From an uncultured Porphyromonadaceae bacterium (GTDB lineage Bacteria; Bacteroidota; Bacteroidia; Bacteroidales; Muribaculaceae): 32,086 bases of DNA. Positions 8,821 to 30,588 of the stretch are shown in pieces (the stretch's first letter is position 1; the number at the start of each line of letters is the position of its first letter). The notes under the pieces are model-generated. The model worked only from the letters and a program-made list of their open reading frames with translations, had not been told where the DNA came from and did not search any database. The stretch lies in NCBI GenBank assembly GCA_947176585.1, contig CAMWRI010000009.1, positions 1-32,086 of the forward strand. Direction: 5' to 3'. The position numbers and the translations under genes are program-made.

Positions 8821-8828
8821 CAAAATTA
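8821..8828 (-). promoter_or_regulatory. Putative -7 element upstream of pfkA
   Basis: Plus-strand CAAAATTA = TAATTTTG on the minus strand (TAnnTTTG), about 33 nt upstream of the pfkA ATG. No convincing -33 box. Confidence 0.35.
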
Positions 8829-8982: not shown

Positions 8983-9669
8983 TTATTCGTCATCTTCATC
9001 CCCGTACCATCCGTAAGGCGGCATTTTTTCTATGTAGGTTTCTTGCAGATGCTGTAGCTCTTCCGGCGGCAGAGGAGTGTATTTAACTATTTGAAAGTCA
9101 CGCTCTCCACTCCCGGATTCGATATGCACAAACCATAATTCGTGTTCATTGGCCTTTACCAGTTGATAATGATCCAACACGTACAAATGCACAGTACCGG
9201 TGTGGCTATCATATTTGTAACCGCTGTTATCTGTAATACGATAGTCCTTCCCTCTATCTACATCCGTGCAATCCATAAAGATCGCCCCTTGGCCATTTTC
9301 CCCGAAGTAGAGTGGTTCCGATGCACCGGGGATCCAGCCGGTTATACCTTTGTCGGTTACAAACATCTTACGCGCCCTGTGACTTGGGGTAGTTCCTAAT
9401 TTATAGTAGTCATAGCACATAGCCGGCTTCCATCCGCGGCCCACAATGGCGGCAAGCAACTGTTCTTCCGAAGGATAGTATTGCCCAAGGCTGTCCTCTA
9501 TAAACATCGCGCCCTCAGCATCCGTCCACACCTTGATAGGAAAGCGCTTGTCATATGCTCGCTGGTCCTGCGCATGCGCATTCTCCAATTTCACAGTTCT
9601 ATGCGCGGCGCACCCGTAGGCAAGCGATACTGAGCACAAAAATAGCGTTATTGCTATTCTATTCATCAA
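8983..9669 (-). CDS. Hypothetical putative lipoprotein
   Basis: Signal-peptide-like N-terminus MMNRIAITLFLCSVSLAYGC|AAH with an imperfect lipobox; no recognised domain; visibly lower GC than its neighbours. Confidence 0.65.
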   Translation of the reverse strand: MMNRIAITLFLCSVSLAYGCAAHRTVKLENAHAQDQRAYDKRFPIKVWTDAEGAMFIEDSLGQYYPSEEQLLAAIVGRGWKPAMCYDYYKLGTTPSHRARKMFVTDKGITGWIPGASEPLYFGENGQGAIFMDCTDVDRGKDYRITDNSGYKYDSHTGTVHLYVLDHYQLVKANEHELWFVHIESGSGERDFQIVKYTPLPPEELQHLQETYIEKMPPYGWYGDEDDE

Positions 9670-12727: not shown

Positions 12728-12735
12728 CAAAGGTA
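12728..12735 (-). promoter_or_regulatory. Putative -7 element upstream of the outer-membrane beta-barrel gene
   Basis: Plus-strand CAAAGGTA = TACCTTTG on the minus strand (TAnnTTTG), 23 nt upstream of the ATG. Confidence 0.45.
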
Positions 12736-12891
12736 GTGATTTTTTGGAGATTAATCGAGTTTTTTCCGGATATATCCCGATTATTCTTGATTAATCCGGA
12801 TTAACCGCAAGCCACATTTGCAAATGTAAATTTCTTTTATTTTTTCGGATATTTTTTTATTTGGCAATGTAAATTATTGCATTTTTTTCGC

Positions 12892-12899
12892 TAACTTTG
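12892..12899 (+). promoter_or_regulatory. Putative -7 element of the dcw cluster promoter
   Basis: TAACTTTG (TAnnTTTG), 42 nt upstream of the rsmH ATG at 12942, preceded by a strongly AT-rich tract; -33 box not clear. Confidence 0.55.
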
Positions 12900-12941: not shown

Positions 12942-13880
12942 ATGAATCAGGAAGTTTATCACATACCCGCTCTATTGCCGCAGACTATCGGTGCGCTCGA
13001 CATCCGCCCCGACGGCATCTACGTGGATGCCACCTACGGCGGCGGAGGCCACTCCGCTGCCATCCTCGATGCCCTGGGGCCGAAGGGACACCTCTACGGC
13101 TTCGACCAGGACGAGGATGCCGTGCGCCGCGCTCCGGCCAAGGACGACCCGCGCTTCACGATGGTCTACAGCAACTTCCGCTACCTCAGCAACTTCATGG
13201 ACTACTACGGAGTGCCGGAGGTAGACGGCGTGCTGGCCGACCTGGGCGTGAGCTTCCACCACTTCGACGACCCCACCCGCGGATTCTCCTTCCGATGGGA
13301 CGGCGCTCTGGACATGCGCATGAACCGTCGCGGCGGACGCTCGGCTGCCGAACTGCTGGCCACTGCATCGCCCGAAGAGCTCACCCGCCTGCTGCGCCTC
13401 TACGGCGAGCTGCGGCAGGCTCCGCGCCTGGCACGCGCCATCACCGAGGCACGCGCCCGCGGTGCCGTCGACACCGTGGAGGCCCTGCGTGCCGTGGCCG
13501 AGCCTCTGCTCAATCCGCGCCAGCAGAAGAAAGAGATGGCCCAGCTGTTCCAGGCTCTGCGCATAGAGGTGAACGACGAGCTCGGCGCCCTGCGCGCGCT
13601 GCTCAACCAGGCCCTGCAGGTGCTCCGCCCCGGCGGGCGCCTGGCCATCATCACCTACCACTCGCTCGAAGACCGCCTGGTGAAGAACTTCATGCGCACC
13701 GGCAACCTCGACGGCACCGAAAACAAAGACTTCTTCGGCCGCACGCTCGCACCTATGCGCCTGCTCAACTCCAAGCCCATCGTGCCAGACGAGGCCGAGG
13801 TGGAGGCCAATCCCCGCAGCCGCAGCGCCAAACTGCGCGTGGCCGTGAAACTCGAACCTCAAAACACTCAGCAGCCATGA
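12942..13880 (+). CDS. rsmH: 16S rRNA (cytosine(1402)-N(4))-methyltransferase RsmH (MraW)
   Basis: YVDATYGGGGHSAAIL, LADLGVSFHHFDDPTRGFSFRWDGALDMRMN, ALRIEVNDELGAL, LAIITYHSLEDRLVKNF. Start taken at MNQEVYHIPAL. Confidence 0.96.
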   Translation: MNQEVYHIPALLPQTIGALDIRPDGIYVDATYGGGGHSAAILDALGPKGHLYGFDQDEDAVRRAPAKDDPRFTMVYSNFRYLSNFMDYYGVPEVDGVLADLGVSFHHFDDPTRGFSFRWDGALDMRMNRRGGRSAAELLATASPEELTRLLRLYGELRQAPRLARAITEARARGAVDTVEALRAVAEPLLNPRQQKKEMAQLFQALRIEVNDELGALRALLNQALQVLRPGGRLAIITYHSLEDRLVKNFMRTGNLDGTENKDFFGRTLAPMRLLNSKPIVPDEAEVEANPRSRSAKLRVAVKLEPQNTQQP

Positions 13881-14233
13881 AATTGCCACGCATCCCGCGC
13901 CCCTCGCGCCGCCACATGAGCGTGGCGTTCGACAATCTGCTGCACGGCAGCTTTCTCACGAGCCGCATATTCAAGCGCTACTTCTTCGGCGTGCTCCTGA
14001 TCGTGGGGCTAATCCTCATCAATATCTCGGTGCGCTACGACTGCGTGACCGGCATGGAGACCATAGCCTCGCTGCGCACACGCCTGCAGGTGGTGCGCAC
14101 GGAGCTGCAGCAGGAGCGCTCCACCTACATGAGTTCTACGCGCGAGAGCACAATGCAGCAGCGCGTCGACTCCCTGGGCCTCGGCCTGGGCATACAGCAA
14201 CGTCCACCCTTTAAACTCCCCGAAGGGAAATGA
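13877..14233 (+). CDS. ftsL: FtsL-like small bitopic cell division protein
   Basis: 118 aa starting MKLPRIPRPSRR; one TM (FFGVLLIVGLILINISV) followed by a coiled-coil-like segment; located between rsmH and ftsI; ATGA overlaps at both ends. Confidence 0.82.
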   Translation: MKLPRIPRPSRRHMSVAFDNLLHGSFLTSRIFKRYFFGVLLIVGLILINISVRYDCVTGMETIASLRTRLQVVRTELQQERSTYMSSTRESTMQQRVDSLGLGLGIQQRPPFKLPEGK

Positions 14234-16446
14234 GCACAGAACACGCAGGAAACAGCAATAACGGCGCCGCACAGGCACCCCGGAGCAAGGACTCGGGACG
14301 CCGCGGCCGCATCATCCTCAACATGGGTATCGTCACGGCTATCGTGCTGGTGATGGTGGCCCTGATCGTGTTCATGCTCGTCAACACCACCGTGGTCAAC
14401 GCCGATGCCTGGAACGCCAAGGGACGCCGCCAGCTCGACACCATCACCCCCATCGCCCCGCTGCGCGGCGACATTCTGGCGTGCGACGGCTCTATCCTGG
14501 CCACGAATCTGAACTACTACGACGTGAGCATCGACTTCAAGCCCAAGCACTTCTGGATCCGCCAGTACGTAGCAGCCCTCGACTCGCTGGCCGACACCCT
14601 GGCCGTGCATTTCCCGGAGCGCACGCGCGCCGAGTGGCACGCCTACCTGTCGAAACCGCTCGAAAAGTCGCGCAAAGACCGCAGCGGCACATATCGCCTG
14701 GTGCGCAACGTGCCCTTCGAGGTGGCCCAGGCCTTCAAGCGCTTCCCATTCTTCCGCCGCACGCGCAACGCCAACCGCACGGGCCTCAAAATCGAGCCGG
14801 TGCTGCGCCGCATGTATCCCTACGGCGACATGGCCCGCCTGAGCATCGGACGCGTGGGCTACCTGCCGGGCCAGCCGGACCAGCACGGAATCTCGGGCCT
14901 GGAGCAGGCGCTGGACACGCTGCTCTTCGGCAAGCCCGGACGAGCCAAGCGCGTGCTGTTCACGAACCGTGTGGCCAAGTGGCCCATCGAGCAGCCCCGC
15001 CACGGCTACTCCGTGACCACCACCATCGACATCACAATGCAGGACATCCTCGAGAGCGAGCTGGGAGAGATGCTCGTGAAGAGCAACGCCGACTGGGGCA
15101 CCGCCATGATCATGGAAGTGGCCACCGGCGACATCAAGGCCATTTCCAACCTCGAGCGGGACTCGCTCCATCCGGGCCGCTACATCGAGGCCATGAACCG
15201 CGCCGTGCTGGCCTACGAGCCGGGTTCGGTGATGAAGGCCATATCCATGATTCCGGCGCTGGAAGACGGCTATGCCCACCCCGTGAGCAAGACTTTCCCC
15301 ATCGGCTACAGCTACGCCTACAAAGGCGGCAACCCCATCCACGACACCCATTCGCCCGGAACCCTGCCCGTGAGCCGCTTCCTCGAATACTCGTCGAACA
15401 TAGGCATGACGCGCCTTGTGGCCGCCCACTACGAGGACAATCCCAACGGATTCCGCGAGCGCCTGCGCGAGATAGGTTTCTTCGACCGATTCAACACCGG
15501 CATCGCCCGCGAGCGCCGGCCCTACTTCCCCACCGTGGAAAACAACAACCGCGGCCTGGTGGCCCTCTCGCGCATGACTTTCGGCTACAGCACCATGATA
15601 CCGCCGCTCTACACCTGCGCCATCTACAACGCCATAGCCAACGACGGCCGCTTCGTGCGTCCGCGTCTGGTCAAGGCACTGCGCGACCGCGACGGCCGCG
15701 ACAGCATCATACCCGTGAGCTACGTGCGCGACAGCATCCTCAGCCGCAGCAACGCGGCGCTGCTGCGCGAGATGCTCACCCAGGTGGTCTACGGCGAGGG
15801 TGGCACCGCCAAATTTCTGCGCGACAAGACGGTGCGCATCGCCGGCAAGACGGGCACAGCCAAGATAGTGAACGAGCTGCGCCCCGGACAGAAGCGCGAC
15901 AGCATCGTGGGACCCGACGGTCGCAAGCGTCCCGTGGCCCTGGGCTACAAGGAGGGACACTACCGCGTGGCCTTCTGCGGATTCTACCCCGCCGAGAAAC
16001 CCAAATACACTTGCATAGTGGTGATCAGCGACCCGCGGCCACCGCTGCACGGACCGGCCGTGACAGCAGGCGCGGTGCTGAAGAACACCGCCCTCAAGCT
16101 CTATGCCCGAGGCTATCTCGACAACTACTCCGACATCAAGGAGAACGCCCCCGCCGATCCCGGACGCCCCACCCTCTACGCCACATGCCGCGATGACCGC
16201 GCCGAGGGAATCCACGATTATATAGGAATGCCCCGTGCCAACGTGATACAGCGCCCGGCCGACACCCCCGCCGGCACAGTGCCGGATGTGCGTGGTCTGG
16301 GCGTGCGCGAGGCCGTGGTGCGCCTTGAGAAAGCCGGCTACAACGTGACATTCCACGGCACCGGCTACGTGGCGTCGCAGGAACCCGCTCCCGGCGCCAA
16401 GGCCCCCAAAGGATATAAAGTGACACTTCAACTCAATCAATTCTGA
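14230..16446 (+). CDS. ftsI: Division-specific peptidoglycan transpeptidase (class B PBP, FtsI/PBP3-like) with C-terminal PASTA domain
   Basis: N-terminal TM; EPGSVMKA (SxxK), SSN (EYSSNIGM), KTGTAK motif; C-terminal VPDVRGLGVREAVVRLEKAGYNVTF PASTA. Confidence 0.95.
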   Translation: MSTEHAGNSNNGAAQAPRSKDSGRRGRIILNMGIVTAIVLVMVALIVFMLVNTTVVNADAWNAKGRRQLDTITPIAPLRGDILACDGSILATNLNYYDVSIDFKPKHFWIRQYVAALDSLADTLAVHFPERTRAEWHAYLSKPLEKSRKDRSGTYRLVRNVPFEVAQAFKRFPFFRRTRNANRTGLKIEPVLRRMYPYGDMARLSIGRVGYLPGQPDQHGISGLEQALDTLLFGKPGRAKRVLFTNRVAKWPIEQPRHGYSVTTTIDITMQDILESELGEMLVKSNADWGTAMIMEVATGDIKAISNLERDSLHPGRYIEAMNRAVLAYEPGSVMKAISMIPALEDGYAHPVSKTFPIGYSYAYKGGNPIHDTHSPGTLPVSRFLEYSSNIGMTRLVAAHYEDNPNGFRERLREIGFFDRFNTGIARERRPYFPTVENNNRGLVALSRMTFGYSTMIPPLYTCAIYNAIANDGRFVRPRLVKALRDRDGRDSIIPVSYVRDSILSRSNAALLREMLTQVVYGEGGTAKFLRDKTVRIAGKTGTAKIVNELRPGQKRDSIVGPDGRKRPVALGYKEGHYRVAFCGFYPAEKPKYTCIVVISDPRPPLHGPAVTAGAVLKNTALKLYARGYLDNYSDIKENAPADPGRPTLYATCRDDRAEGIHDYIGMPRANVIQRPADTPAGTVPDVRGLGVREAVVRLEKAGYNVTFHGTGYVASQEPAPGAKAPKGYKVTLQLNQF

Positions 16447-17909
16447 TGAAAAAGCTCAGTGAATTGCTCCCCCATATAGGCCCGCACGAGGTGCGGGGCG
16501 ACGCATCGGTGCAGCTCGAAGCCATCACCGCCGACTCCCGCGCGGTGGCACCGGGCAGCCTTTTCGTGGCCATGCGCGGCACCGCAGTGGACGGCCACCG
16601 GTTCGTTCCCGCCGCCGTGGAGGCCGGAGCTGCGGCCATCGTTGTGGCCGCCGACGCAACCATCGACCCGGCCACGGAAGCCCGCGCCACTGTGGTGCGA
16701 GTGCCCGACACGGCAGAGGCCCTGGGCCTGCTCGCATCCGCATGGCACGGCCACCCCTCGCGCCACCTCACCCTCGTGGGTGTGACCGGCACCAACGGCA
16801 AGACCACCGTGGCCACCCTGCTCTACGACATGGCCCGCCTGCGCGGCGAGCGCGCCGGCCTGCTCAGCACCGTGGTGAACCGCATAGGCACCCGCGCCGT
16901 GGCCTCCACCCACACCACTCCCGACCCGCTGGAGCTCAACGCCCTGCTGGCGCAGATGGTGGACGAGGGATGCACATTCGCGGCCATGGAGGTGAGCAGT
17001 CATGCGTGCGCTCAGCGCCGCATAGCCGGCCTCGCATTTGCCGGAGGAGTGTTCACCAACCTCACCCGAGACCACCTCGACTACCACGGCACCTTCCAGG
17101 CCTATCTCGAGGCCAAGCGCATGTTCTTCGACGCTCTGCCTGCTGACGCATGGGCTCTCGTGAACGAAGACGACTCACACGCGCGCGTTCTTATTCAAAA
17201 TACACGCGCACGCGTGTACGGCTACGGTCTCCGCTCTGCCGCAGATTTCCGCGCCGCCGTGGTGGAGGAACGCATCGACGGCATGGAGCTGCGCATCGAC
17301 GGCCGCGAGCTCCACACACCATTTGCCGGCCGATTCAACGCATCCAATCTTCTGGCCGTCTACGGCGCCACGCGCCTGCTGGGCTGCGACAAAGACGAGA
17401 CGCTGCGGCTGCTGAGCGCCCTGCACCCGGTGGCCGGCCGTTTCCAGACGTTCCACGGCGGAGGCATCACGGCCATAGTGGACTATGCCCACACGCCCGA
17501 TGCGCTGGCCAACGTACTCGACACCATCCGCCAGGCCGCCGGGCAGGATGCCGAGGTGATCACCGTGTGTGGCTGCGGCGGCGACCGAGACCACGGTAAG
17601 CGCCCCATGATGGCCCGCGAGGCTGCCCTGCGCAGCTCGCGCCTGATCATCACCTCCGACAATCCCCGCAGCGAGGACCCTGCCGAAATCGCCGCACAGA
17701 TGCTGGCCGGCCTCGACGACGACGAGCGCATAGCCGCAACCGTGGAACTCGACCGCGCCCGCGCCATAGCCCTGGCTATCAGCGAGGCCGAGCCCGGAGC
17801 CGTGGTGCTGGTGGCGGGCAAAGGCCACGAAAACTACCAGATAATAGGCTCTGAACGCCGTCATTTCGACGACGCCGAGCAAGTGAAGGAAGCTCTCAGC
17901 CAAAGATAA
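16446..17909 (+). CDS. murE: UDP-N-acetylmuramoyl-L-alanyl-D-glutamate--2,6-diaminopimelate ligase
   Basis: GVTGTNGKTTVATLLY, TNLTRDHLDYHGTF, VDYAHTPDALANVL, and DNPR (SDNPRSEDP), the meso-DAP recognition motif. Confidence 0.96.
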   Translation: MKKLSELLPHIGPHEVRGDASVQLEAITADSRAVAPGSLFVAMRGTAVDGHRFVPAAVEAGAAAIVVAADATIDPATEARATVVRVPDTAEALGLLASAWHGHPSRHLTLVGVTGTNGKTTVATLLYDMARLRGERAGLLSTVVNRIGTRAVASTHTTPDPLELNALLAQMVDEGCTFAAMEVSSHACAQRRIAGLAFAGGVFTNLTRDHLDYHGTFQAYLEAKRMFFDALPADAWALVNEDDSHARVLIQNTRARVYGYGLRSAADFRAAVVEERIDGMELRIDGRELHTPFAGRFNASNLLAVYGATRLLGCDKDETLRLLSALHPVAGRFQTFHGGGITAIVDYAHTPDALANVLDTIRQAAGQDAEVITVCGCGGDRDHGKRPMMAREAALRSSRLIITSDNPRSEDPAEIAAQMLAGLDDDERIAATVELDRARAIALAISEAEPGAVVLVAGKGHENYQIIGSERRHFDDAEQVKEALSQR

Positions 17910-17919
17910 ACCACTCATC

Positions 17920-19173
17920 ATGCTATACTACCTCTTCCAGCTACTCCAGGACAGCGGCGTGCCGGGCGCCCGACTCATGGACTATCTCACTTTCCGCTCC
18001 GGCGCCGCATTCGTGCTGGCCATGCTCCTGGCCATATTCGCGGGAGCAGCAGTGATACGCCGCCTGCAGCTCATGCAGGTGGGCGAGATCATCCGCGACC
18101 TCGATCTCGAAGGCCAGCAGGCCAAGAAAGGCACCCCCACCATGGGAGGTATCATCATCATCCTGAGCATAGTGCTGCCCTGCCTGCTCGTGGGAAATCT
18201 CGCGAATCCCTACATGATACTCATGCTCGTGGCCACCCTCTGGCTGGGTACCATCGGCTTCCTCGACGACTACAAGAAGCTCACCCGCCACAATAAAGAC
18301 GGCATACGCGGCAAGTACAAGATCTTCGGACAGGTGGGTATAGCGCTCATCGTGGCCGGCACCATGTATCTCAACCCCAACATGGTGATCGTGCAGAACC
18401 ACGAAGTGATCGACTCGTCCACGCAGCGCGTGGAGCAGGTGATCTACGACGAGGACGAGGAAGTGAAATCCCCCGAGACCACCATTCCCTTCGTGAAGAA
18501 CAACAACTTCAACTACTCGTGGTTTACGGGCTGGATGGGCAGCCATGCCGAGACCGGCGGCTGGGTGGTGTTTTTCATCTTCGTGATGTTTTTCGTCACG
18601 GCCACCAGCAACGGCGCCAACCTCAACGACGGCCTCGACGGCCTCTGCGCCGGCCTGAGCGCCGTGGCAGGCGTGGCACTCGCCATCATGGCATATCTGG
18701 GCGGCAACCTCATCTACTCGGCCTACCTGAACATAATGTATGTGCCCGCCAGCGGCGAACTTGTGGTGTATATGGCCGCCTTCATCGGTGCCCTCGTGGG
18801 CTTCCTGTGGTACAACGCCAACCCCGCGCAGGTGTTCATGGGCGACACCGGCTCGCTCACCCTGGGCGGCATTATCGCCGTATTCGCCATCCTCATCCAC
18901 AAGGAACTCCTGCTGCCCATCCTGGTGGCCCTCTTCTATATCGAGGACCTCTCGGTGGTGCTACAGGTGGCCTACTTCAAGCGCACAGGCGGCAAGCGCA
19001 TCTTCAAGATGTCGCCGCTGCACCACCACTTCCAGAAACCCGGCGACGGACGCTGGCCGGCACTCATCCAGTGGCCGCGCATGGCAATTCCCGAAGCCAA
19101 GATCGTGACCCGCTTCTGGATCATAGGCATCATTCTGGCCGTCGTAACTTTCGTAACCCTCAAAATACGCTGA
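17920..19173 (+). CDS. mraY: Phospho-N-acetylmuramoyl-pentapeptide-transferase
   Basis: GTPTMGGIIII, FLDDYKKLTRHNKDGI, NLNDGLDGLCAG, FMGDTGSLTLGG, MSPLHHHFQ. Confidence 0.97.
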   Translation: MLYYLFQLLQDSGVPGARLMDYLTFRSGAAFVLAMLLAIFAGAAVIRRLQLMQVGEIIRDLDLEGQQAKKGTPTMGGIIIILSIVLPCLLVGNLANPYMILMLVATLWLGTIGFLDDYKKLTRHNKDGIRGKYKIFGQVGIALIVAGTMYLNPNMVIVQNHEVIDSSTQRVEQVIYDEDEEVKSPETTIPFVKNNNFNYSWFTGWMGSHAETGGWVVFFIFVMFFVTATSNGANLNDGLDGLCAGLSAVAGVALAIMAYLGGNLIYSAYLNIMYVPASGELVVYMAAFIGALVGFLWYNANPAQVFMGDTGSLTLGGIIAVFAILIHKELLLPILVALFYIEDLSVVLQVAYFKRTGGKRIFKMSPLHHHFQKPGDGRWPALIQWPRMAIPEAKIVTRFWIIGIILAVVTFVTLKIR

Positions 19174-19174
19174 T

Positions 19175-20509
19175 ATGAAGAACATCGTGATACTCGGAGC
19201 CGGCGAGAGCGGCACAGGAGCCGCCATTCTGGCACGCGACAAAGGCATGAACGTGTTTCTCAGCGACTCGGGCACCGTGGCACCCCGATATGCCGAAATG
19301 CTCGACGCCGAGGGTATAGAGTGGGAGCAGGGCGGCCACACGCTCGACCGCATCCTGCAGGCCGACGAAGTGGTGAAGAGCCCCGGCATACCGGACACCG
19401 TGCCCGTGATGCAGGCCGTGCTGGAGCGCGGAATCCACGTGATCAGCGAGATTGAATTCGCAGCACGCTTCTTCCCGGAGGGCACACGCACCGTGTGCAT
19501 CACCGGCAGCAACGGCAAGACCACTACCACCATGCTCACCCACTACCTGCTGCAGCAGGCCGGCATCGACGCATCCACCGCCGGCAACATCGGCCGCTCG
19601 CTGGCATGGCAGGTGGCGCGCGAGCCACATGCCGTGTACGTGATAGAGCTCAGCAGCTTCCAGCTCGACAATATGTATGACTTCCGGGCCGACACCGCCG
19701 TGCTCACCAATATCACCCCCGACCACCTCGACCGCTACGGCTACGAGATGCAGCGCTACGTCGACGCCAAGATGCGCATACTTCGCAACATGCGTCCGTG
19801 CGACACGTTCATAAGCTGGGCCGACGACCCCGTGACCACCGTGCAGCCCGCCGCCATCCACACCGAGGCCCGGCATCTCACCTACTCCTGCACCCGTCCG
19901 GCCGATGCCTGCATCAACGACGAGGAAATCATGCTGCTGGGCAAGCCCCTGATGTATGCCGACAGGGTGCTCCTTCCCGGCACCCATAACTGCCTGAACG
20001 CCATGGCATCGGCCCTTGCCGCCACCACCGTGGGAGCCTCGCCCGAGGCTATAGCCCGGGGCCTGGAGACCTTCTCGCCCGTGGAACACCGTCTGGAGCC
20101 CATATTCACCAGCGACGGCCTCCACTGGGTGAACGACAGCAAGGCCACCAACGTGAACTCCACATTCTATGCCCTCGAGGCCATGCACGGCCCCACGATA
20201 CTCATCCTGGGCGGCAAGGACAAGGGCAACGACTACTCCGAGATCCTGCCGCTGGTGCAGGACCGCGTGGTGGCCATAGTGGCCATGGGACTGCACAACG
20301 AAAAAATCGTGGACTTCTTCTCGCCCCATGTGCAGGTGGAGTCCACCCACACCCTCGACCAGGCTATCGAAACCTGCCGCCTACTGGCCCATGAGGGCGA
20401 CACCATCCTGCTCTCGCCCTGCTGCGCCAGCTTCGACCTCTTCACCAGTTATGAGGACCGCGGACGCCGCTTCAAACAGCGCGTGCTCGAAACCCAACCC
20501 AAACGCTGA
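19175..20509 (+). CDS. murD: UDP-N-acetylmuramoylalanine--D-glutamate ligase
   Basis: VILGAGESGTGAAILA, KSPGIP, CITGSNGKTTTTML, LTNITPDHLDRYG, NDSKATNVNSTFYAL, LILGGKDKGNDY. Confidence 0.96.
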   Translation: MKNIVILGAGESGTGAAILARDKGMNVFLSDSGTVAPRYAEMLDAEGIEWEQGGHTLDRILQADEVVKSPGIPDTVPVMQAVLERGIHVISEIEFAARFFPEGTRTVCITGSNGKTTTTMLTHYLLQQAGIDASTAGNIGRSLAWQVAREPHAVYVIELSSFQLDNMYDFRADTAVLTNITPDHLDRYGYEMQRYVDAKMRILRNMRPCDTFISWADDPVTTVQPAAIHTEARHLTYSCTRPADACINDEEIMLLGKPLMYADRVLLPGTHNCLNAMASALAATTVGASPEAIARGLETFSPVEHRLEPIFTSDGLHWVNDSKATNVNSTFYALEAMHGPTILILGGKDKGNDYSEILPLVQDRVVAIVAMGLHNEKIVDFFSPHVQVESTHTLDQAIETCRLLAHEGDTILLSPCCASFDLFTSYEDRGRRFKQRVLETQPKR

Positions 20510-20551
20510 CAACCCACATCTCTCACCCAACACACCAACGCAATCACCGCA

Positions 20552-21868
20552 ATGGAATCCTCTCCGGCAATAGCAGCACAGGCCGACGCCATACGGCCCC
20601 GCGTGCGCACCGATCATCACATCTGGGGCATCTACATCGTGCTCCTGATCTTCTCAATCATCGAGCTGTTCAGCGCCTCCAGCCAGGAGGTGCGCCCCGA
20701 CGACATCTACGGCCCCATCGTGCGCCATGCCCAGTTTCTGGTCATGGGTCTGGCGATAATGCTCGTGATCCAGCACTTCCACTACCGCCACGTAGTGCGC
20801 TTCATCCCCTGGCTCGTGGCAGGCAGCATCGCCGCCATGCTCTATGTGCTGGTGGCCGGTGTCACCATCAACGGTGCCCGCCGCGGCATGCGAATCGCAG
20901 GCATGGTGATCCTGCCCGCCGAGTTCATAAAGCTGGCCGTGGCCCTGGGCGTGGCCCTGATTATGAGCCGCTACCAGGTGAAGGGGCGACGCGACGTGTC
21001 GATCCACGGCATACGCCTGTGTGTGATTCTCACGCTCGTGTGCTCCGGACTGCTCTTCACGCAGGGCCTCACAAACACCCTGCTGCTCATGGCCATAAGC
21101 CTGGCCATGATGGCCATCGGCGGTGTGGGGTGCAAGAAATTCTGGTGCGTGGTGGGAGTCTACGCCCTCATAGGCGGAGCAGCCATGGGCGTGAAGGTGA
21201 TTGCCGCCAAAACGGCCCCGCCGTCGGAAGCTGCCATAGAGGTGGCGCGGCTCAACCACGAGGAAGTGGGCGAAATCAATGAGACCGATCGCTCCAGCAC
21301 ATGGGCCGGACGCCTTACGCGCCACTTCCGCCTCAACAAATACAACGACCCCATCAACGACATCAACAAGCAGGAGCAGCTGAGCTACATAGCCCAGGCC
21401 CACGGAGGCATCACGGGCGTGGGCCCCGGCAAGTCGCGCGAGAACGCCCGCCTGCCCCTGGCATTCAGCGACTATATATATGCCATCGTGGTCGAGGAGT
21501 GTGGCCTGATATTCAGCATCTTCCTGCTGCTGTGCTATCTGTGGCTGTTCTTGCGCACGGGCTACGTGGGCACCCAGCTGCGGCGCACCCCGGCATGCTT
21601 CCTCATGATAGGCTGCGGGCTCTACATAGTGGTGCAGGCACTGTTCCACATGGCCATCGTGAGCGGCGTATTCCCCGTATCGGGCCAGCCGCTGCCGCTC
21701 ATCAGCAAGGGCGGCACATCGGTGCTCGCCACCTCGGTGGCCTTCGGCGTGATGCTCAGCGTGAGCCGCCACGCCGCCCGCACCGGCGACAAAGACACCG
21801 AGGCAGCAACCATCGAGCTCCAGAGCCTGCCCGAAAATCTCAGAACCGACAACCCCACACAGCTATGA
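20552..21868 (+). CDS. ftsW: SEDS-family peptidoglycan glycosyltransferase FtsW
   Basis: Multi-pass membrane protein; GARRGMRIAGMVILPAEFIKLAVAL, HGGITGVGPGKSRENARLPLAFSDYIYAIVVEECGL, FPVSGQPLPLISKGGTS. Confidence 0.95.
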   Translation: MESSPAIAAQADAIRPRVRTDHHIWGIYIVLLIFSIIELFSASSQEVRPDDIYGPIVRHAQFLVMGLAIMLVIQHFHYRHVVRFIPWLVAGSIAAMLYVLVAGVTINGARRGMRIAGMVILPAEFIKLAVALGVALIMSRYQVKGRRDVSIHGIRLCVILTLVCSGLLFTQGLTNTLLLMAISLAMMAIGGVGCKKFWCVVGVYALIGGAAMGVKVIAAKTAPPSEAAIEVARLNHEEVGEINETDRSSTWAGRLTRHFRLNKYNDPINDINKQEQLSYIAQAHGGITGVGPGKSRENARLPLAFSDYIYAIVVEECGLIFSIFLLLCYLWLFLRTGYVGTQLRRTPACFLMIGCGLYIVVQALFHMAIVSGVFPVSGQPLPLISKGGTSVLATSVAFGVMLSVSRHAARTGDKDTEAATIELQSLPENLRTDNPTQL

Positions 21869-22980
21869 CCAATACCACAATCAAGCGAGCAATCATAAGC
21901 GGAGGCGGCACCGGCGGACACATATTCCCGGCCCTCAGCATAGCCGGCGAGCTGCGCCGTCGGAATCCCGAAGTGGAAATCCTCTTCGTGGGTGCGGAAG
22001 ACCGTATGGAGATGACACGCGTGCCGGATGCCGGCTACGACATCGTGGGACTGCCCGTGGCCGGATTCGACCGCAAGCGCCTGTGGCGCAATTTCCGCAC
22101 CCTCTGGCTGCTGCAGAAGAGCATGCGCCTGGCCCGTAAGACCGTGCGCGACTTCCACCCGCAGATAGCCATAGGAGTGGGCGGCTATTGCAGCGGTCCC
22201 ACCCTCAAGGCTGCCCAGGCCCTGGGTGTGCCCACTCTCATCCAGGAGCAGAACGGCTATCCGGGTGTCACGAATAAATTACTTGCAAAGCGCGCCGAGG
22301 CCATCTGCGTGGCCTACGAGGGCACCGAACGCTTCTTCCCGGCCGACCGCATCCACCTCACGGGCAATCCCGTGCGTGCGTCGCTGCTCGACTGCACCCT
22401 CACGCCCGCCGAGGCCCGCAAGCAGCTGGGATTCGATCCGGAGCGCCCGCTGGTGCTCGTGGTGGGGGGCTCCCTGGGCGCAACCACTATCAACCGCGCG
22501 ATAGCCGCCGGCATCGACGCCATCACGGCCACCGGCGCCCAATTGCTGTGGCAGACCGGACGCCGCGACACCGACCTGGCCGCCGCCGTGACCGCCGGAC
22601 GCAAGGACGCCCGCGCCACCGAATTCATCGCCCGCATGGATGTGGCCTACCGGGCCGCCACCGTGGTGGTGTCGCGCGCAGGCGCCGGAAGCATCAGCGA
22701 GCTGCAGCTGCTGGGCAAGCCAACGGTGCTTGTGCCCTCGCCCAACGTCACCGAAGACCACCAGCGACGCAACGCCATGGCCCTCACCGCCCGCGATGCC
22801 GCCGTGATGGTGGAGGACGCCGACGCCACCGGAGAACTCGTGCCCGCCATCACCGCTCTCATAGCCGATGAGGAGCGGTGCGCCGCCATGGGCCGCGCCA
22901 TCAGCGCCATGGCATTGCCGGACGCCGCCTCGCTCATTGTAGACATTGCCGAAAACATAGTAGCCACACACAGCAAATGA
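21865..22980 (+). CDS. murG: UDP-N-acetylglucosamine--N-acetylmuramyl-(pentapeptide) pyrophosphoryl-undecaprenol N-acetylglucosamine transferase
   Basis: AIISGGGTGGHIFPALSIA, GVGGYCSGPTLKAA, PTLIQEQNGYPGVTNKLLAK, VVGGSLGA, SRAGAGSISELQLLGKPTVLVPSPNVTEDHQ. ATG at 21865 (ATGA overlap with ftsW). Confidence 0.96.
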   Translation: MTNTTIKRAIISGGGTGGHIFPALSIAGELRRRNPEVEILFVGAEDRMEMTRVPDAGYDIVGLPVAGFDRKRLWRNFRTLWLLQKSMRLARKTVRDFHPQIAIGVGGYCSGPTLKAAQALGVPTLIQEQNGYPGVTNKLLAKRAEAICVAYEGTERFFPADRIHLTGNPVRASLLDCTLTPAEARKQLGFDPERPLVLVVGGSLGATTINRAIAAGIDAITATGAQLLWQTGRRDTDLAAAVTAGRKDARATEFIARMDVAYRAATVVVSRAGAGSISELQLLGKPTVLVPSPNVTEDHQRRNAMALTARDAAVMVEDADATGELVPAITALIADEERCAAMGRAISAMALPDAASLIVDIAENIVATHSK

Positions 22981-24362
22981 ATCACGAATATCCCCGAATA
23001 TACTTCGTGGGCGGCGGAGGCATAGGAATGGCCGCCCTGGAGCGCTATTTTATCTCGCAGGGCCGAAGCGTGGCCGCCTACGACCGCACCCCCTCGCCCC
23101 TCACCGCAGCCCTCACCGCCGAGGGGGTGGCCTTCAGCTACGACGATGACCCCGCTCTGGCCGTGCCCGCACCCTTCCGCGATCCCGAGGGCACCCTGGT
23201 GGTCTACACCCCCGCCGTGCCCGAGACGTCGGCTCTGATGCAGTTCTTCCGCTCCGCCGGCCACCGCGTGATCAAGCGCGCCGAGGCCCTGGGCATCATC
23301 ACCCGCGGCAGCCGCGCCCTGTGCTTCGCCGGCACCCACGGCAAGACCACCACATCGGCCATGGCCGCCCACATCCTCCACACATGCACCTGTGGCTGCA
23401 ACGCCTTTCTGGGCGGCATCCTGCGCAACTACGACAGCAACCTGCTGCTGAGCCCCACCTCGCCGTGGACCGTGGCTGAAGCCGACGAATACGACCGCTC
23501 CTTCCACCGCCTGCGCCCGCATATCGCCGTGATCACCGCCACTGATCCGGACCACCTCGACATCTACGGCACAGAGGAAGCCTACCTCGAGAGCTTCGCC
23601 CACTTCACCGAGCTGATAGCTCCCGGCGGCGCGCTCGTGGCGCATACGGGCATGAAACTGAAGCCCCGCACGGGGCCCGATGTGAGCGTGTTCAGCTACT
23701 CGCGCAACGAAGGCGACTTCCACGCCGAGCACGTGCGCGTGGAGCCCGGCGGACGCCTCTTCTTCGACTTCGTGCATCCGGGCGGCGTGCTCCGCGATAT
23801 CGAGTTGGGAGTGCCCGTAGATATCAACGTGGAAAATGCCGTGGCCGCACTGGCCGCATGCTGGCTCACCGGCAGCCTCGAGCCAGAGGCCGCACGCCGT
23901 GCAATGGCCACCTTCGGAGGCACGGAGCGCCGTTTCCAGTTCGTGCTGCGCGACGGACGCGACGGACGCGTGATCATCGACGACTACGCCCACCATCCCG
24001 ACGAGCTGCGCGCCGGAATCGCCTCTGTGAGAGCACTTTTTCCCGATCGCAAACTCACCGTGGCCTTCCAGCCTCATCTCTACACCCGCACGCGCGACTT
24101 CGCCCCGCAATTCGCCGAGGCCCTGTCGGCAGCCGACTCTGTGGTGCTCACCGACCTCTATCCGGCCCGCGAGCAACCGCTGCCCGGAGTGAGCTCCCGC
24201 ATCATTTTCGATGCCGTTTCGTGTGCTGATAAACACCTAATCGCCAAAGACAATTTGGTAGATTGGCTGAAAAACCGTAACTTTGACATCCTATTGGCCT
24301 GCGGTGCCGGCGACATGAGTCTGCTGCTGCCGCAAGTGGCCGAATACTACAGCGAGAAATGA
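22977..24362 (+). CDS. murC: UDP-N-acetylmuramate--L-alanine ligase
   Basis: YFVGGGGIGMAALERYF, FAGTHGKTTTSAM, EADEYDRSFHRL, DDYAHHPDELRAGI. ATG at 22977 (ATGA overlap with murG). Confidence 0.96.
   Translation: MNHEYPRIYFVGGGGIGMAALERYFISQGRSVAAYDRTPSPLTAALTAEGVAFSYDDDPALAVPAPFRDPEGTLVVYTPAVPETSALMQFFRSAGHRVIKRAEALGIITRGSRALCFAGTHGKTTTSAMAAHILHTCTCGCNAFLGGILRNYDSNLLLSPTSPWTVAEADEYDRSFHRLRPHIAVITATDPDHLDIYGTEEAYLESFAHFTELIAPGGALVAHTGMKLKPRTGPDVSVFSYSRNEGDFHAEHVRVEPGGRLFFDFVHPGGVLRDIELGVPVDINVENAVAALAACWLTGSLEPEAARRAMATFGGTERRFQFVLRDGRDGRVIIDDYAHHPDELRAGIASVRALFPDRKLTVAFQPHLYTRTRDFAPQFAEALSAADSVVLTDLYPAREQPLPGVSSRIIFDAVSCADKHLIAKDNLVDWLKNRNFDILLACGAGDMSLLLPQVAEYYSEK
24254..24285 (+). promoter_or_regulatory. 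Candidate internal promoter for ftsQ-ftsA-ftsZ inside murC
   Basis: TTTG (24254-24257), 20-nt spacer, TAACTTTG (24278-24285): matches the Bacteroidetes consensus TTTG-N19-21-TAnnTTTG at all specified bases. Confidence 0.65.
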
Positions 24363-25222
24363 CGAAACGCTCCATCATAATGTGTGCCTGCACGGTAGTG
24401 CTGCTGGTGTATCTGGCCTTCGCTATGGCCGCTTCCGCCGACAGCGCGACGCACGCGCCTCTGGGCAAGGTGCACATAGGAGTATCGGACTCGATGCACA
24501 CCGGATTCATCACCCCCGCCGACATCGAGCGCGACTTCACCGCCGCCATCACCCCCGGCACGCCGCGCTGCTCGCTGAGCATCTCCCGCCTGGAGGAAGC
24601 CCTCGTAGCTTCCGACAAGATCGAGCGGGCCAACGTGGCGGTGCTCTCCGACGGCAGCCTGGCCGTGGATATCGTGCCCATGGTGCCCGTGGCGCGAGTG
24701 TTCGACAGCCGCGGTGCCGATTCGTACTATATCAACGCCCACGGCAAGCGTATCAGCGCCGAGGCCCGCTACCACGTGGACGTGCCCGTGGTGTGCGGCA
24801 CCTTCAACGACCGCTACACCCCTGCCCGCCTGCTCCCCCTGCTCAGCTACGTGGCCTCGCGCCCGGAGCTCGACGCGCTGGTGAGCACCGTGGTGAGCAC
24901 CTCCTCGGGCGACATCATCATAGTGCCGGCCATGCGCGGCCACGTGATCAACTTCGGCGACACCACCGACATGCCCGGCAAATTCGCCCGCCTGCAGCGG
25001 TTCTACCGCTCGGTATCACCCGTGCGCGGCTGGAACAGCTACGACACCATCAGCGTGAAATGGGCCGGACAGGTGGTGGCCTCACGCCGCGCGGGCCATC
25101 TCTCCGATGTGCAGCTCGCCGTGGCCGAGGAGGAATTCAACGATGCCGATGCCGAGACCGTGCAGGGCTTCGACCCGCATGAGGCCGACAACGGCATAGT
25201 GCCCGACAATGCCTATCAATGA
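24359..25222 (+). CDS. ftsQ: Cell division protein FtsQ/DivIB-like
   Basis: Short N-terminal cytoplasmic segment, one TM, periplasmic region with LEEALVASDKIERANVAVLSDGSLAVDIVPMVPVARVFD; position murC-ftsQ-ftsA. Confidence 0.88.
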   Translation: MTKRSIIMCACTVVLLVYLAFAMAASADSATHAPLGKVHIGVSDSMHTGFITPADIERDFTAAITPGTPRCSLSISRLEEALVASDKIERANVAVLSDGSLAVDIVPMVPVARVFDSRGADSYYINAHGKRISAEARYHVDVPVVCGTFNDRYTPARLLPLLSYVASRPELDALVSTVVSTSSGDIIIVPAMRGHVINFGDTTDMPGKFARLQRFYRSVSPVRGWNSYDTISVKWAGQVVASRRAGHLSDVQLAVAEEEFNDADAETVQGFDPHEADNGIVPDNAYQ

Positions 25223-25271
25223 CTCAACCACAACGAATACTAATCGACAAAACACCCATATAAATCTCTCA

Positions 25272-26807
25272 ATGGACGCCAGATACACAGCCGTGCTTGA
25301 AATCGGCAGCAGTAAAGTGAAAGGTGCGGTGGCTCGCACCGACAGCGATGGAGCCTCCACGCTCGTGGCCATGCACCAGGTGAGCACCAACGGATGCGTG
25401 CGACATGGACGCGTGCAGAACATCCAGGAAGTGGCCGCAGCAGTGGACGAGGTGCTCCGCCGCCTCGAAAACGACCCCGCCGTGGCTCCCCGCAAGATCA
25501 GGCGAGTGAGGGTGGCACTGGGCGGCCGCTCGCTCAAAAGCGTCCATTCCGAGGCCGAGGCACGCTTCGGCGAGGAGACCGACATCACTCCCGAAACCGT
25601 GGAGCGCCTCAAGAAAGAGGCCACATTCAGCCTGCCGGCCGACCGCCAGGTGCTGGCCGTGCTGCCCCGCACCTACAAGGTGGACAACACCAAGGTGCAG
25701 AAAGCCATCGGATGCACATGCCGCAGCATCCAGGCCAAGGTGACGGTGGTGCTGGCCGACCCCTCCAACCGCACCAACCTCGACCGTGTGCGCATGACCG
25801 GCGGCGCCGATACGCCGGACGGCGAACCGGTGGCCGTGGAGCGCGTGTATGTGCCGCGCCAGCTGGCACTCGCAGCCATGGCCCTCACTCCCAGCGAGCA
25901 GCAGTTGGGCTGCGTGCTCGTGGATATGGGTGCCGAAACCACCACGGTGAGCATCCACCGCGAGGGTGCCCTGCAGTCGCTCGTGACGCTGCCAATGGGC
26001 GGACGCAACATCACCATCGACCTGGCCAACGGCTTGAAGTGCACCGAGGAGCAGGCCGAATATATCAAGACCAACCAGGCATCGGCCATAGCCGACAGTG
26101 AGTCGATGGGCAACGACGCCAAGGAAATCAACAGCTACTCCCAGGCCCGTGCAGGCGAGATTATCGCAAACGTGATGTATCGCATCGAGGCCGCAGGCTT
26201 CAAACCCTCCGACCTCCCCGCAGGTATCATACTCACAGGCGGAGCCACCGGCATGCGCCGCATGGCAGAGCTCTTCGAGACGCAGACCAAGATGAAGGTG
26301 CGCACAGCTCCTGCCGACAACCGCGTGCGCCCCGGCACCACCGGCGCCGACCCCATCACATCCCTCGAAATCATGGCCCTGGCCGCATGGCCCGCAGGAG
26401 TGGACGGCAGCGACCTCACCGCACTCCCCGAGACCGCGCCCGCACGCACCGCCGAGGAGGAAGACCCCTACGGCCACGACGGCGCCGACGACACTGACGC
26501 ACGCTACGGACGTGAATACCACAACCCGCGCGGCTACGACCGCCGCCGCTACGATACCGATGACGACGACCCGGACCTCCTGGACGACGACCCGGATGAC
26601 GACGACTACGAAGACGACCGACGCCGCAGGCCCGGCAAAGGCGCGAAATCGAAGAAGCAGTACGTAGACCCGGATGACGATGACGACGACTACGAAGAAG
26701 ATCGCGGCAAGCGTAAAGGCGGCCGGTTCAGCGGCCTGAGCAATTTAATGAAAAAATTCGGCGACGCGGTGATAGGCACCACCGGCCCCCAAGATATGGA
26801 CGATTGA
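25272..26807 (+). CDS. ftsA: Cell division protein FtsA with Asp-rich linker and C-terminal amphipathic helix
   Basis: YTAVLEIGSSKVKGAVA, CVLVDMGAETTTVSIHREGAL, ILTGGATGMRRMAELFE (actin-fold phosphate/adenosine motifs). Start taken at MDARYTAV (25272). Confidence 0.93.
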   Translation: MDARYTAVLEIGSSKVKGAVARTDSDGASTLVAMHQVSTNGCVRHGRVQNIQEVAAAVDEVLRRLENDPAVAPRKIRRVRVALGGRSLKSVHSEAEARFGEETDITPETVERLKKEATFSLPADRQVLAVLPRTYKVDNTKVQKAIGCTCRSIQAKVTVVLADPSNRTNLDRVRMTGGADTPDGEPVAVERVYVPRQLALAAMALTPSEQQLGCVLVDMGAETTTVSIHREGALQSLVTLPMGGRNITIDLANGLKCTEEQAEYIKTNQASAIADSESMGNDAKEINSYSQARAGEIIANVMYRIEAAGFKPSDLPAGIILTGGATGMRRMAELFETQTKMKVRTAPADNRVRPGTTGADPITSLEIMALAAWPAGVDGSDLTALPETAPARTAEEEDPYGHDGADDTDARYGREYHNPRGYDRRRYDTDDDDPDLLDDDPDDDDYEDDRRRRPGKGAKSKKQYVDPDDDDDDYEEDRGKRKGGRFSGLSNLMKKFGDAVIGTTGPQDMDD

Positions 26808-26832
26808 ATCACCCTCAACCACAATACGATAT

Positions 26833-28188
26833 ATGGCACCCGAAGATAATCAGTATCTCGACAAATACGAACAAGCCGAAACCGAACCCAACCGCATCGT
26901 GGTAGTGGGCGTGGGTGGCGGCGGCAACAATGCCGTCAACTACATGTACGGCCAGGACATCCGCAGCGTATCCTTCGTTGTGGCCAACACCGACCGCCAG
27001 GCGCTCAACTCGTCGCCCGTGCCCACGAAGGTGCTCCTGGGTCCCACCGTCACCAAAGGACGCGGCGCCGGAGCAAAGCCAGAGCGCGCCAAAGCCGCGG
27101 CCGAGGAGAGCGCCCAGGATATCGAGCGCCTCTTCAGCGACGACATCGACATGGTGTTCGTCACCGCCGGCATGGGCGGAGGCACCGGCACGGGCGCAGG
27201 CCCGGTGGTGGCCCGCATCGCCCGCGAGAAAGGGCTGCTCACCATCGGAATCGTCACCATTCCCTTCCTCTTCGAGGGCTTGCGCAAGATCAACAAGGCT
27301 CTCGCAGGCGCCGATGAGATGAAGAAATACGTCGACGCACTGCTGGTGATCCAGAACGAGCGCCTCACCGATATCTACCCCGACGAAATCTTCGAGGAGG
27401 CATTCGCCAAGGCCGACGAAACTCTGGCCACCGCCGCACGCTCCATCTCGGAAATCATCACCAACCAGGGCTACATCAACCTCGACTTCAACGATGTGGA
27501 CACCACCCTGCGCGACGGCGGCACTGCAATCATATCCATAGGCTACGGCGAGGGCGAGAACCGCGTGACCAAGGCCATAGAAGACGCCCTGAACTCGCCG
27601 CTGCTCAACAACACCGACGTGTTCTCCAGCAAGCACCTGCTATTCAACCTCTGCTACTCGCGCGAGGCCGAGGTGCAGTTCAAGGCCAAGGAGGCAAAGG
27701 AATTCAACGACTTCGTGAACAAGATCGATCCCGAAGTGGAGGTGATCTGGGGTATCAAATACGACGAGACACTGGGCAACAAGGTGAAGCTCACCGTGCT
27801 CGCATCGGGCTTCGATATCACGGTGCACGAGAATGAGAACGGCGACCCCGACCTTGTGCTCACGGGCACACCACGCGACCATCACGACAAGCCGACACAA
27901 CCGGGCGCCATAGATATAGCCAAGATCTCCAACCTGTACGGCGAAGAGAAGATCAACGAGACCATGCGCACCCAGGACCGCCAGCGCTACATAATCCTGG
28001 ATGATGAAAATCTTGACAACGACGACGTGATCGAACGCTTCGAAAACACTCCCGCCTATAACCGAGACCGACGCCTGGTGCAGAACATCAAGGCCGCCGG
28101 GCAGCCCGTGGCTGCGCCCGAGCGCCCCGCGGCTCCCGCGCGCCCCGCAGCCGACGCCAACAGCATCAACTTCATCGACGAAGAATGA
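26833..28188 (+). CDS. ftsZ: Cell division GTPase FtsZ
   Basis: VVGVGGGGNNAVNYM, VFVTAGMGGGTGTGAGPVVARIA (tubulin signature), DEIFEEAFAKADE. Confidence 0.98.
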   Translation: MAPEDNQYLDKYEQAETEPNRIVVVGVGGGGNNAVNYMYGQDIRSVSFVVANTDRQALNSSPVPTKVLLGPTVTKGRGAGAKPERAKAAAEESAQDIERLFSDDIDMVFVTAGMGGGTGTGAGPVVARIAREKGLLTIGIVTIPFLFEGLRKINKALAGADEMKKYVDALLVIQNERLTDIYPDEIFEEAFAKADETLATAARSISEIITNQGYINLDFNDVDTTLRDGGTAIISIGYGEGENRVTKAIEDALNSPLLNNTDVFSSKHLLFNLCYSREAEVQFKAKEAKEFNDFVNKIDPEVEVIWGIKYDETLGNKVKLTVLASGFDITVHENENGDPDLVLTGTPRDHHDKPTQPGAIDIAKISNLYGEEKINETMRTQDRQRYIILDDENLDNDDVIERFENTPAYNRDRRLVQNIKAAGQPVAAPERPAAPARPAADANSINFIDEE

Positions 28189-28943: not shown

Positions 28944-29786
28944 GTGAACACCGACACCCTTCCGCAACCCCCGCAGGCTCCGCTGCCACGCCCCTTCGAC
29001 GCCTCGCTCGACCACGCGCTGGGCGCCATGGTGGAAGCGCGCCCGATCGACATGTCGCTGTTCAAGGCCTGTGCCGAGGAGGCCGCCCGCCAGTCGGCAC
29101 TGTGCTCCGGGCGCCCCGCCGAGCCTCGCGTGCTACATCCGGCCCGCCAGCCGGCAGTGTTGGGAGTGCTGGCCGTGCTGTTTGTGGCTTGCCTTCTGGT
29201 CTACAGCTATTTCGGCCGGGCCATGGCCGAAAGCGTGAACGACCTGTGGAGCCTGCGCAGCCGCGAGAACGCTTTCGACGACACCGCATCGGGGCGCCGC
29301 CGCGTGCAATGGGTGCTCGCCCTGCAATACGCCGCCTACGTCGGGCTCCTGCTCTATGCCATCGTTGATCCCGTGCCGGAGGCCGACACTCCGCTCGCGA
29401 TGCGCCACATCATGGCCATGATGTCCGTGGCGGCGGCCTATTACGTGTTTCAGCTGGGCGTGTACAACGTGCTGGCCTACACCTTCGCTCCGGATGCCGG
29501 GGCAGGCCACAGATGGGTGGACGGCTTCCAGGCTTCGCAAGGCATCACAGGTCTCGTGCTTTCCGTGCCGGTGCTGGCGATGGTGTTTTATCCGGATGCA
29601 TTTCTGGCATGCCTGACAGCCGCCGTGACGGTATATTTCATGGGACGCCTGATCTTCATAATCAAGGGTTTTAGAATTTTTTACACTGGTTATACCTCTT
29701 TAGTGTATTTTATTTTGTACCTTTGCACTCTTGAAATAGTACCCGTTCTGTGCATTCTGGCGCTCGCAGGCACGATAGCCCGCTGA
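28944..29786 (+). CDS. DUF4271 family membrane protein
   Basis: Multi-pass protein with C-terminal FRIFYTGYTSLVYFILYLCTLEIVPVL typical of DUF4271, located upstream of a HemD-like gene; GTG start in the ORF track. Confidence 0.8.
   Translation: MNTDTLPQPPQAPLPRPFDASLDHALGAMVEARPIDMSLFKACAEEAARQSALCSGRPAEPRVLHPARQPAVLGVLAVLFVACLLVYSYFGRAMAESVNDLWSLRSRENAFDDTASGRRRVQWVLALQYAAYVGLLLYAIVDPVPEADTPLAMRHIMAMMSVAAAYYVFQLGVYNVLAYTFAPDAGAGHRWVDGFQASQGITGLVLSVPVLAMVFYPDAFLACLTAAVTVYFMGRLIFIIKGFRIFYTGYTSLVYFILYLCTLEIVPVLCILALAGTIAR
29718..29725 (+). promoter_or_regulatory. Candidate -7 element inside the DUF4271 gene, upstream of the hemD-like gene
   Basis: TACCTTTG (TAnnTTTG) in a local AT-rich island within otherwise GC-rich coding sequence; -33 box weak. 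Confidence 0.5.
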
Positions 29787-29793
29787 TGCCGGG

Positions 29794-30588
29794 GTGCGCA
29801 TCCACACCTTGAAACGAGCCATCGCAGTGATTATAAAGAAGATATTAGTATCGCAGCCCAAGCCCGACACCGAAAAATCACCCTATTTTGAAATAGCCGA
29901 AAAATATGGTGTCGACATCGTTTTCCGTCCTTTCATCAAAGTGGAAGGCCTGTCGGTAAAGGATTTCAGGGCCCAGAAAATCAATATCGCCGACTACTCG
30001 GCCATCATCTTCACAGCCAAGACCGCTATCGACAATTTCTTCCGCCTGGCCGAAGAAACCCGCGTGAGCATCCCGGACACGCAGAAATACTTCTGCTCCT
30101 CGGAAAGCATTGCTCACTACCTGCAGAAATACATCGTATACCGCAAGCGCAAGATCTTCGCCTCCAAGACCGGCAAGCTCGCTGACATCATCCCCTCGAT
30201 GGTCAAGCACAAGACCGAGAAATATCTCTTTGCCGTGAGCGACGTGCACAGCGGCAAGGACTCGGCCATGCTCGCCGAGAGCAAGGTGAACTTCACCCCC
30301 GCCGTGATGTATCGCACCGTGAGCAACGACTTCGCCCCCGATGAGCCTTTCGACTACGACATGCTCGTGTTCTTCAGCCCACAGGGCATACAGTCGCTAT
30401 TCAAGAACTTCCCCGATTTCAAGCAGGGCGACATCGTGATTGCCACCTTCGGCGCCGCCACATCCAAGGCTGCCACAGACGCGGGCCTGCGCGTGGACGT
30501 AGCCGCTCCCTCGCCCGAAGCACCCTCCATGACCCAGGCCATAGACAATTATCTGGCCGAAGTACAACCCCCGCAGACAGCCGAATGA
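29794..30588 (+). CDS. hemD: Uroporphyrinogen-III synthase (HemD-like) family protein
   Basis: ILVSQPKPDTEKSPYFEIAEKYGVDIVFRPFIKVEGLSVKDFRAQKINIADYSAIIFTAKTAIDNFF and FFSPQGIQSLFKNFP...IATFGAATSKAATDAGLRVDVAAPSPEAPSMTQAI. The real start may be the GTG at 29827. Confidence 0.78.
   Translation: MRIHTLKRAIAVIIKKILVSQPKPDTEKSPYFEIAEKYGVDIVFRPFIKVEGLSVKDFRAQKINIADYSAIIFTAKTAIDNFFRLAEETRVSIPDTQKYFCSSESIAHYLQKYIVYRKRKIFASKTGKLADIIPSMVKHKTEKYLFAVSDVHSGKDSAMLAESKVNFTPAVMYRTVSNDFAPDEPFDYDMLVFFSPQGIQSLFKNFPDFKQGDIVIATFGAATSKAATDAGLRVDVAAPSPEAPSMTQAIDNYLAEVQPPQTAE

Follow-up and report, generated by a model that had tools for sequence, protein, structure and literature searches.

The 3' end of murC in the 32,086-nt stretch of DNA analysed here (the window) contains a site, at 24254-24285 of the + strand, that very probably functions as a promoter for the primary sigma factor, gives rise to an extra ftsQAZ transcript, was gained once and has been kept by selection. 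The two boxes named in the original prediction are present exactly as described: TTTG at 24254-24257 and, 20 nt further on, TAACTTTG at 24278-24285. The whole site reads TTTGGTAGATTGGCTGAAAAACCGTAACTTTG, and the peptide encoded at the boxes is DNLVDWLKNRNFDILLACGAGD. The core TTG of the -33 box (24255-24257) is the codon of Leu427; the -7 box comprises the third base of the Arg434 codon, the Asn435 and Phe436 codons and the first base of the Asp437 codon, and is preceded by the A-rich end of the spacer, AAAAACCG (24270-24277).

Promoters of the Bacteroides primary sigma factor, sigma-ABfr, as characterized in B. thetaiotaomicron and B. fragilis, combine a -7 element TAnnTTTG, a TTTG near -33 and an AT-rich spacer (PMC7366714). 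The murC site shares all of these: TAACTTTG matches TAnnTTTG, and the TTTG near -33 lies at a spacing of 20 nt, inside the expected range of ~19-21 nt for TTTG or TTG. RNA polymerase carrying a primary sigma factor of the sigma-ABfr type would recognize the two boxes and the AT-rich spacer within the last 110 nt of murC. When both strands were searched, 24254-24285 was the single match to the full consensus in the window, the mean in shuffled windows being 0.09, and it is also the best-scoring + strand promoter site of the window. A sigma-70 site of the E. coli type that would serve ftsQ was considered and rejected, the matches being weak and their number near chance.

The same pattern serves as a promoter motif throughout this genome. 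TTTG-N17-23-TAnnTTTG has 227 matches (117 + 110) in the 2.4-Mb assembly, as opposed to 18 (9 + 9) for the reversed pattern, so that most of the matches are not due to chance. A spacer of 20 nt is the commonest (56 of 99) among the genomic matches listed, the murC site scores above the median of the 99 other matches listed, and the A-rich spacer end recurs in the genome-wide collection of sites. A Sigma70_r3 gene was not detected in the window's own assembly (G000; 90% complete); because five of six other genomes of the genus contain one, this absence is probably an assembly gap.

The host gene is part of a dcw-type run on the + strand: rsmH (assigned by position; ATG at 12943), an FtsL-like gene, a PASTA penicillin-binding protein and a Mur ligase at the place of murE are followed by mraY, murD, an ftsW-like gene, murG, murC, ftsQ, ftsA and ftsZ. 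murC (UDP-N-acetylmuramate--L-alanine ligase, 22977-24362, +) was identified by TIGR01082 (E=2e-85) and three Pfam Mur ligase domains; its score of 287 bits compares with an NCBIfam murC cut-off of 335 bits, yet all three domains are present, indicating a divergent MurC. Its end overlaps the ftsQ start in an ATGA (murC end 24362, ftsQ ATG 24359). ftsQ (24359-25222, +; an ORF of 287 aa) has no Pfam or NCBIfam match and was assigned by its position and by matching relatives, while ftsA (25272-26807, +; TIGR01174, E=3.7e-49) and ftsZ (26833-28188, +; TIGR00065, E=2.1e-97, above the curated cut-off) were recognized by their models. The site is thus located in a coding gene on the same strand, with ftsQ-ftsA-ftsZ directly 3' of it; ftsQ follows murC in 81 of 81 loci (the window and 80 relatives), and ftsA comes next in 80. 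Since no terminator-like site was found on the + strand between 24200 and 28900, a transcript initiated in murC should cover ftsQ, ftsA and ftsZ. Gene order, this lack of terminator-like sites and conservation together suggest that the site drives ftsQAZ independently; transcription of the three genes would be raised, or set separately from that of the upstream peptidoglycan-precursor genes.

Two TAnnTTTG sites had been claimed for the + strand array, and these are indeed found at 24278 and 29718; a third, at 12892, precedes rsmH at the beginning of the array. The latter, TAACTTTG at 12892-12899 (+), is situated ~44 nt 5' of the rsmH ATG and is likely the main promoter of the dcw run; no TTG or TTTG was found at the usual spacing from it. 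Inspection of the ORFs just 5' of it revealed none resembling mraZ. The box at 29718-29725 (+), TACCTTTG, lies in an AT-rich stretch ahead of an ORF at 29794 and is likely the promoter of genes 3' of the ftsZ group; no TTTG or TTG was found at a spacing of 19-21. Strong -7-like boxes on the minus strand, all outside the dcw run (2385-2392, 8821-8828, 9637-9644, 12728-12735 and 12821-12828), probably are promoters of minus-strand genes.

Transcription usually starts 5-8 nt 3' of the -7 box, which places the predicted start region at 24290-24296 (+). The additional transcript may begin near A24293, the best guess, inside the conserved stretch TTATTGAC, and would read through ftsQ, ftsA and ftsZ. 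From the position of the boxes and the ftsQ ATG at 24359, a 5' leader of ~66 nt, located inside murC (24293-24358, +), is predicted if A24293 is the start; the original estimate of ~70 nt differs from this by only a few bases. In B. thetaiotaomicron, leaders have a mean length of 52 nt and a median of 32 nt (PMC7366714). A literature search yielded no published start sites for Muribaculum. Within 24291-24296, relatives strongly prefer TTA/CTA and TTG as the Leu439-Leu440 codons, a bias taken here to mark the start region, although an AT-rich start region would not by itself account for how well the TTG-AC part is conserved.

Whether the boxes merely reflect the protein can be judged from the codons. 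MurC residues around N-F-[DE] adjoin a conserved strand, [DE][IV]LL..GAG[DN], so the protein does constrain some of the letters, and a conserved peptide whose codons happen to spell both boxes might in principle account for the site. The original prediction hinged on conservation of the boxes beyond what the protein needs, and such conservation is pronounced: in the 81 loci with DNA, mostly from metagenome assemblies, the full two-box pattern occurs on the coding strand of the last 200 nt of murC in 51, a count across mutually related loci of shared ancestry that are not independent. Resampling of the last 70 codons according to each gene's own codon usage produced the pattern in 0.8 of 81 loci (maximum 3 in 500 rounds), and synonymous codon shuffling inside the AT-rich tail produced it in 6.9 of 81 (maximum 15). 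Elsewhere in the ~13-kb neighbourhoods of the 81 loci, two-box matches number eight on the same and eight on the opposite strand. Likewise, TAnnTTTG is found in most loci in only a single 50-nt bin of the ~13 kb around murC (68 of 81; runner-up bin, 7 of 81). At the same codons as in the window, the -7 box is present in 71 of the 81 loci; all 71 have TT at the place of the -33 box and a TTG or TTTG at a spacing of 18-21, an arrangement found at just three other sites in their 4.5-kb stretches, and the A-tract at -8 to -4 is present in 80-100% of relatives. The Phe codon of the -7 box is TTT in 73 of 78 genes, compared with 577 of 1647 elsewhere in murC; in genes of at least 58% GC the figures are 24 of 25 and 83 of 506. 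Synonymous bias along the whole gene is highest at codon 434 (CGT) and second highest at 427 (the TTG of the -33 box), followed by codons 440 and 439 just 3' of the -7 box, with 436 (TTT) close behind; the proposed constraint of these codons by promoter function is thereby supported. Moreover, the frame in which TTTG is read differs between loci, and the spacer compensates: xxT-TTG goes with 20 nt in 29 loci and TTT-Gxx with 19 nt in 22, which means that conservation acts on the DNA word rather than on the peptide. The murC genes that lack the promoter differ among themselves in the residues encoded at the box, with TTC as a frequent Phe codon there (in five, the sole TTC users in the set). 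The two synonymous nulls, the codon bias profile and the two-frame TTTG refute a combination of chance and protein constraint, which we regard as extremely improbable.

The codons at the site had been described as atypical, and the whole neighbourhood is: 24201-24300 (+) has 41% GC, as opposed to ~67% in the body of murC, and is the 100-nt window of lowest GC in the gene run 12943-28188. The dip is genuine, and codons rich in A and T are plausible where the end of a gene overlaps the next start. Slow codons ahead of the murC stop, or an mRNA kept free of structure for the coupled ftsQ start, might have generated promoter letters as a by-product, and the local AT-richness does lift the chance expectation, to the 6.9 of 81 loci given above. 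The dip, however, is located ~60-160 nt 5' of the stop and not at the ftsQ start, and the synonymous bias peaks on the box codons instead of being evenly spread. It also disappears in relatives without the boxes although their murC-ftsQ junction is retained: the GC difference is -0.236 in promoter carriers, -0.061 in the ten relatives without the promoter and -0.064 in 132 distant murC genes without it. The contrast between carriers and losers is suggestive rather than a formal test, as an independent-pairs comparison under shared ancestry provided only three well-supported pairs, too few to reach significance. An origin of the letters in translation is very unlikely. Scarcely more credible is a binding site of another factor or an RNA element, such as a processing site or the 5' end of a small RNA, in place of a promoter of ftsQAZ. 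Conservation does extend past the two boxes into the start region TTATTGAC, and a short RNA could be a further product of the promoter; on the other hand, both the conserved letters and their spacing coincide with the promoter motif found genome-wide, no + strand terminator-like site precedes or interrupts ftsQ, and RNAalifold predicted no conserved structure in 20 aligned sequences, so that a conserved RNA structure at the site was rejected.

An ftsQAZ promoter of the sigma-ABfr type in murC is not indispensable, however: the site is absent in ten of the 81 relatives, and yet ftsQ follows murC in all ten, with ftsA after ftsQ in nine (the contig of the tenth gave no ftsA match). No replacement promoters were found from -1600 to +2900 in these relatives, save for one doubtful site in L039. 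In a MurC tree of 138 sequences the site is confined to a single clade of 121, of which 109 have both boxes; six changes are needed on the tree among the 81 close loci. An order-wide search with one mismatch allowed matched 48 of 393 genomes, and the exact matches were concentrated in seven families. Muribaculaceae are among these, a carrier MurC (G022) grouping as identical to that of Heminiphilus faecis, as are Barnesiellaceae, one carrier family holding Barnesiella sp. An55. At the corresponding place of murC, the site was not found in 23 same-class or 26 other-class loci, and most other sampled Bacteroidales families, as well as other orders and classes of the phylum, were without it. The simplest history would be one gain, in the ancestor of a clade of Bacteroidales that includes Muribaculaceae, Barnesiellaceae and about five more families, followed by several losses.

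Selection on the promoter may fix the MurC residues N-F-[DE] here as well as the codons. It is likely that a promoter fixed once in the gene of an essential enzyme has dictated both codons and residues (AAC TTT G) over about seven families, the evolution of the MurC C-terminal domain being subordinate there to the transcription of division genes, and that the residues diverge only upon promoter loss.

Intragenic promoters of ftsQAZ are known in E. coli, and the murC promoter would join this kind. Promoters at the 3' end of the E. coli dcw cluster feed ftsQ, ftsA and ftsZ (PMC3265435), including the ddlB-ftsZ promoters as cited in PMC5061873. The proposed arrangement resembles this in that additional promoters towards the end of the cluster, within or beside the coding genes immediately 5' of the division genes, would provide for their transcription; in contrast to E. 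coli, the host gene here is murC and not ddlB, ftsQ or ftsA, the promoter is of another type, and one full consensus site stands against six promoters. In Bacillus mycoides and B. subtilis, ftsQAZ transcripts with starts internal to the dcw cluster outnumber the long ones that include the mur genes (PMC3762067). The proposed transcript would likewise start within the cluster, whereas in Bacillus the promoters are located within or close to the ftsQ-ftsA region and depend on different sigma factors. Compared with a typical sigma-ABfr promoter, the murC site differs in lying wholly within an upstream coding gene whose codons and residues it appears to constrain, with a start that is predicted here. 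Its internal position is not new in itself, as internal start sites make up 21% of all start sites in B. thetaiotaomicron (PMC7366714). No description of an ftsQ/murC promoter in Bacteroidetes was found in the literature searched, which did not cover all journals.

Comparative evidence from synonymous sites alone can thus locate an intragenic promoter in uncultured bacteria, and a regulatory signal is seen to shape the sequence of an essential enzyme. A supply of FtsZ that is separate from the synthesis of cell-wall precursors has been studied mainly in E. coli and Bacillus; in an abundant gut lineage, the murC site is a precise and conserved candidate for the element that may set the two apart.
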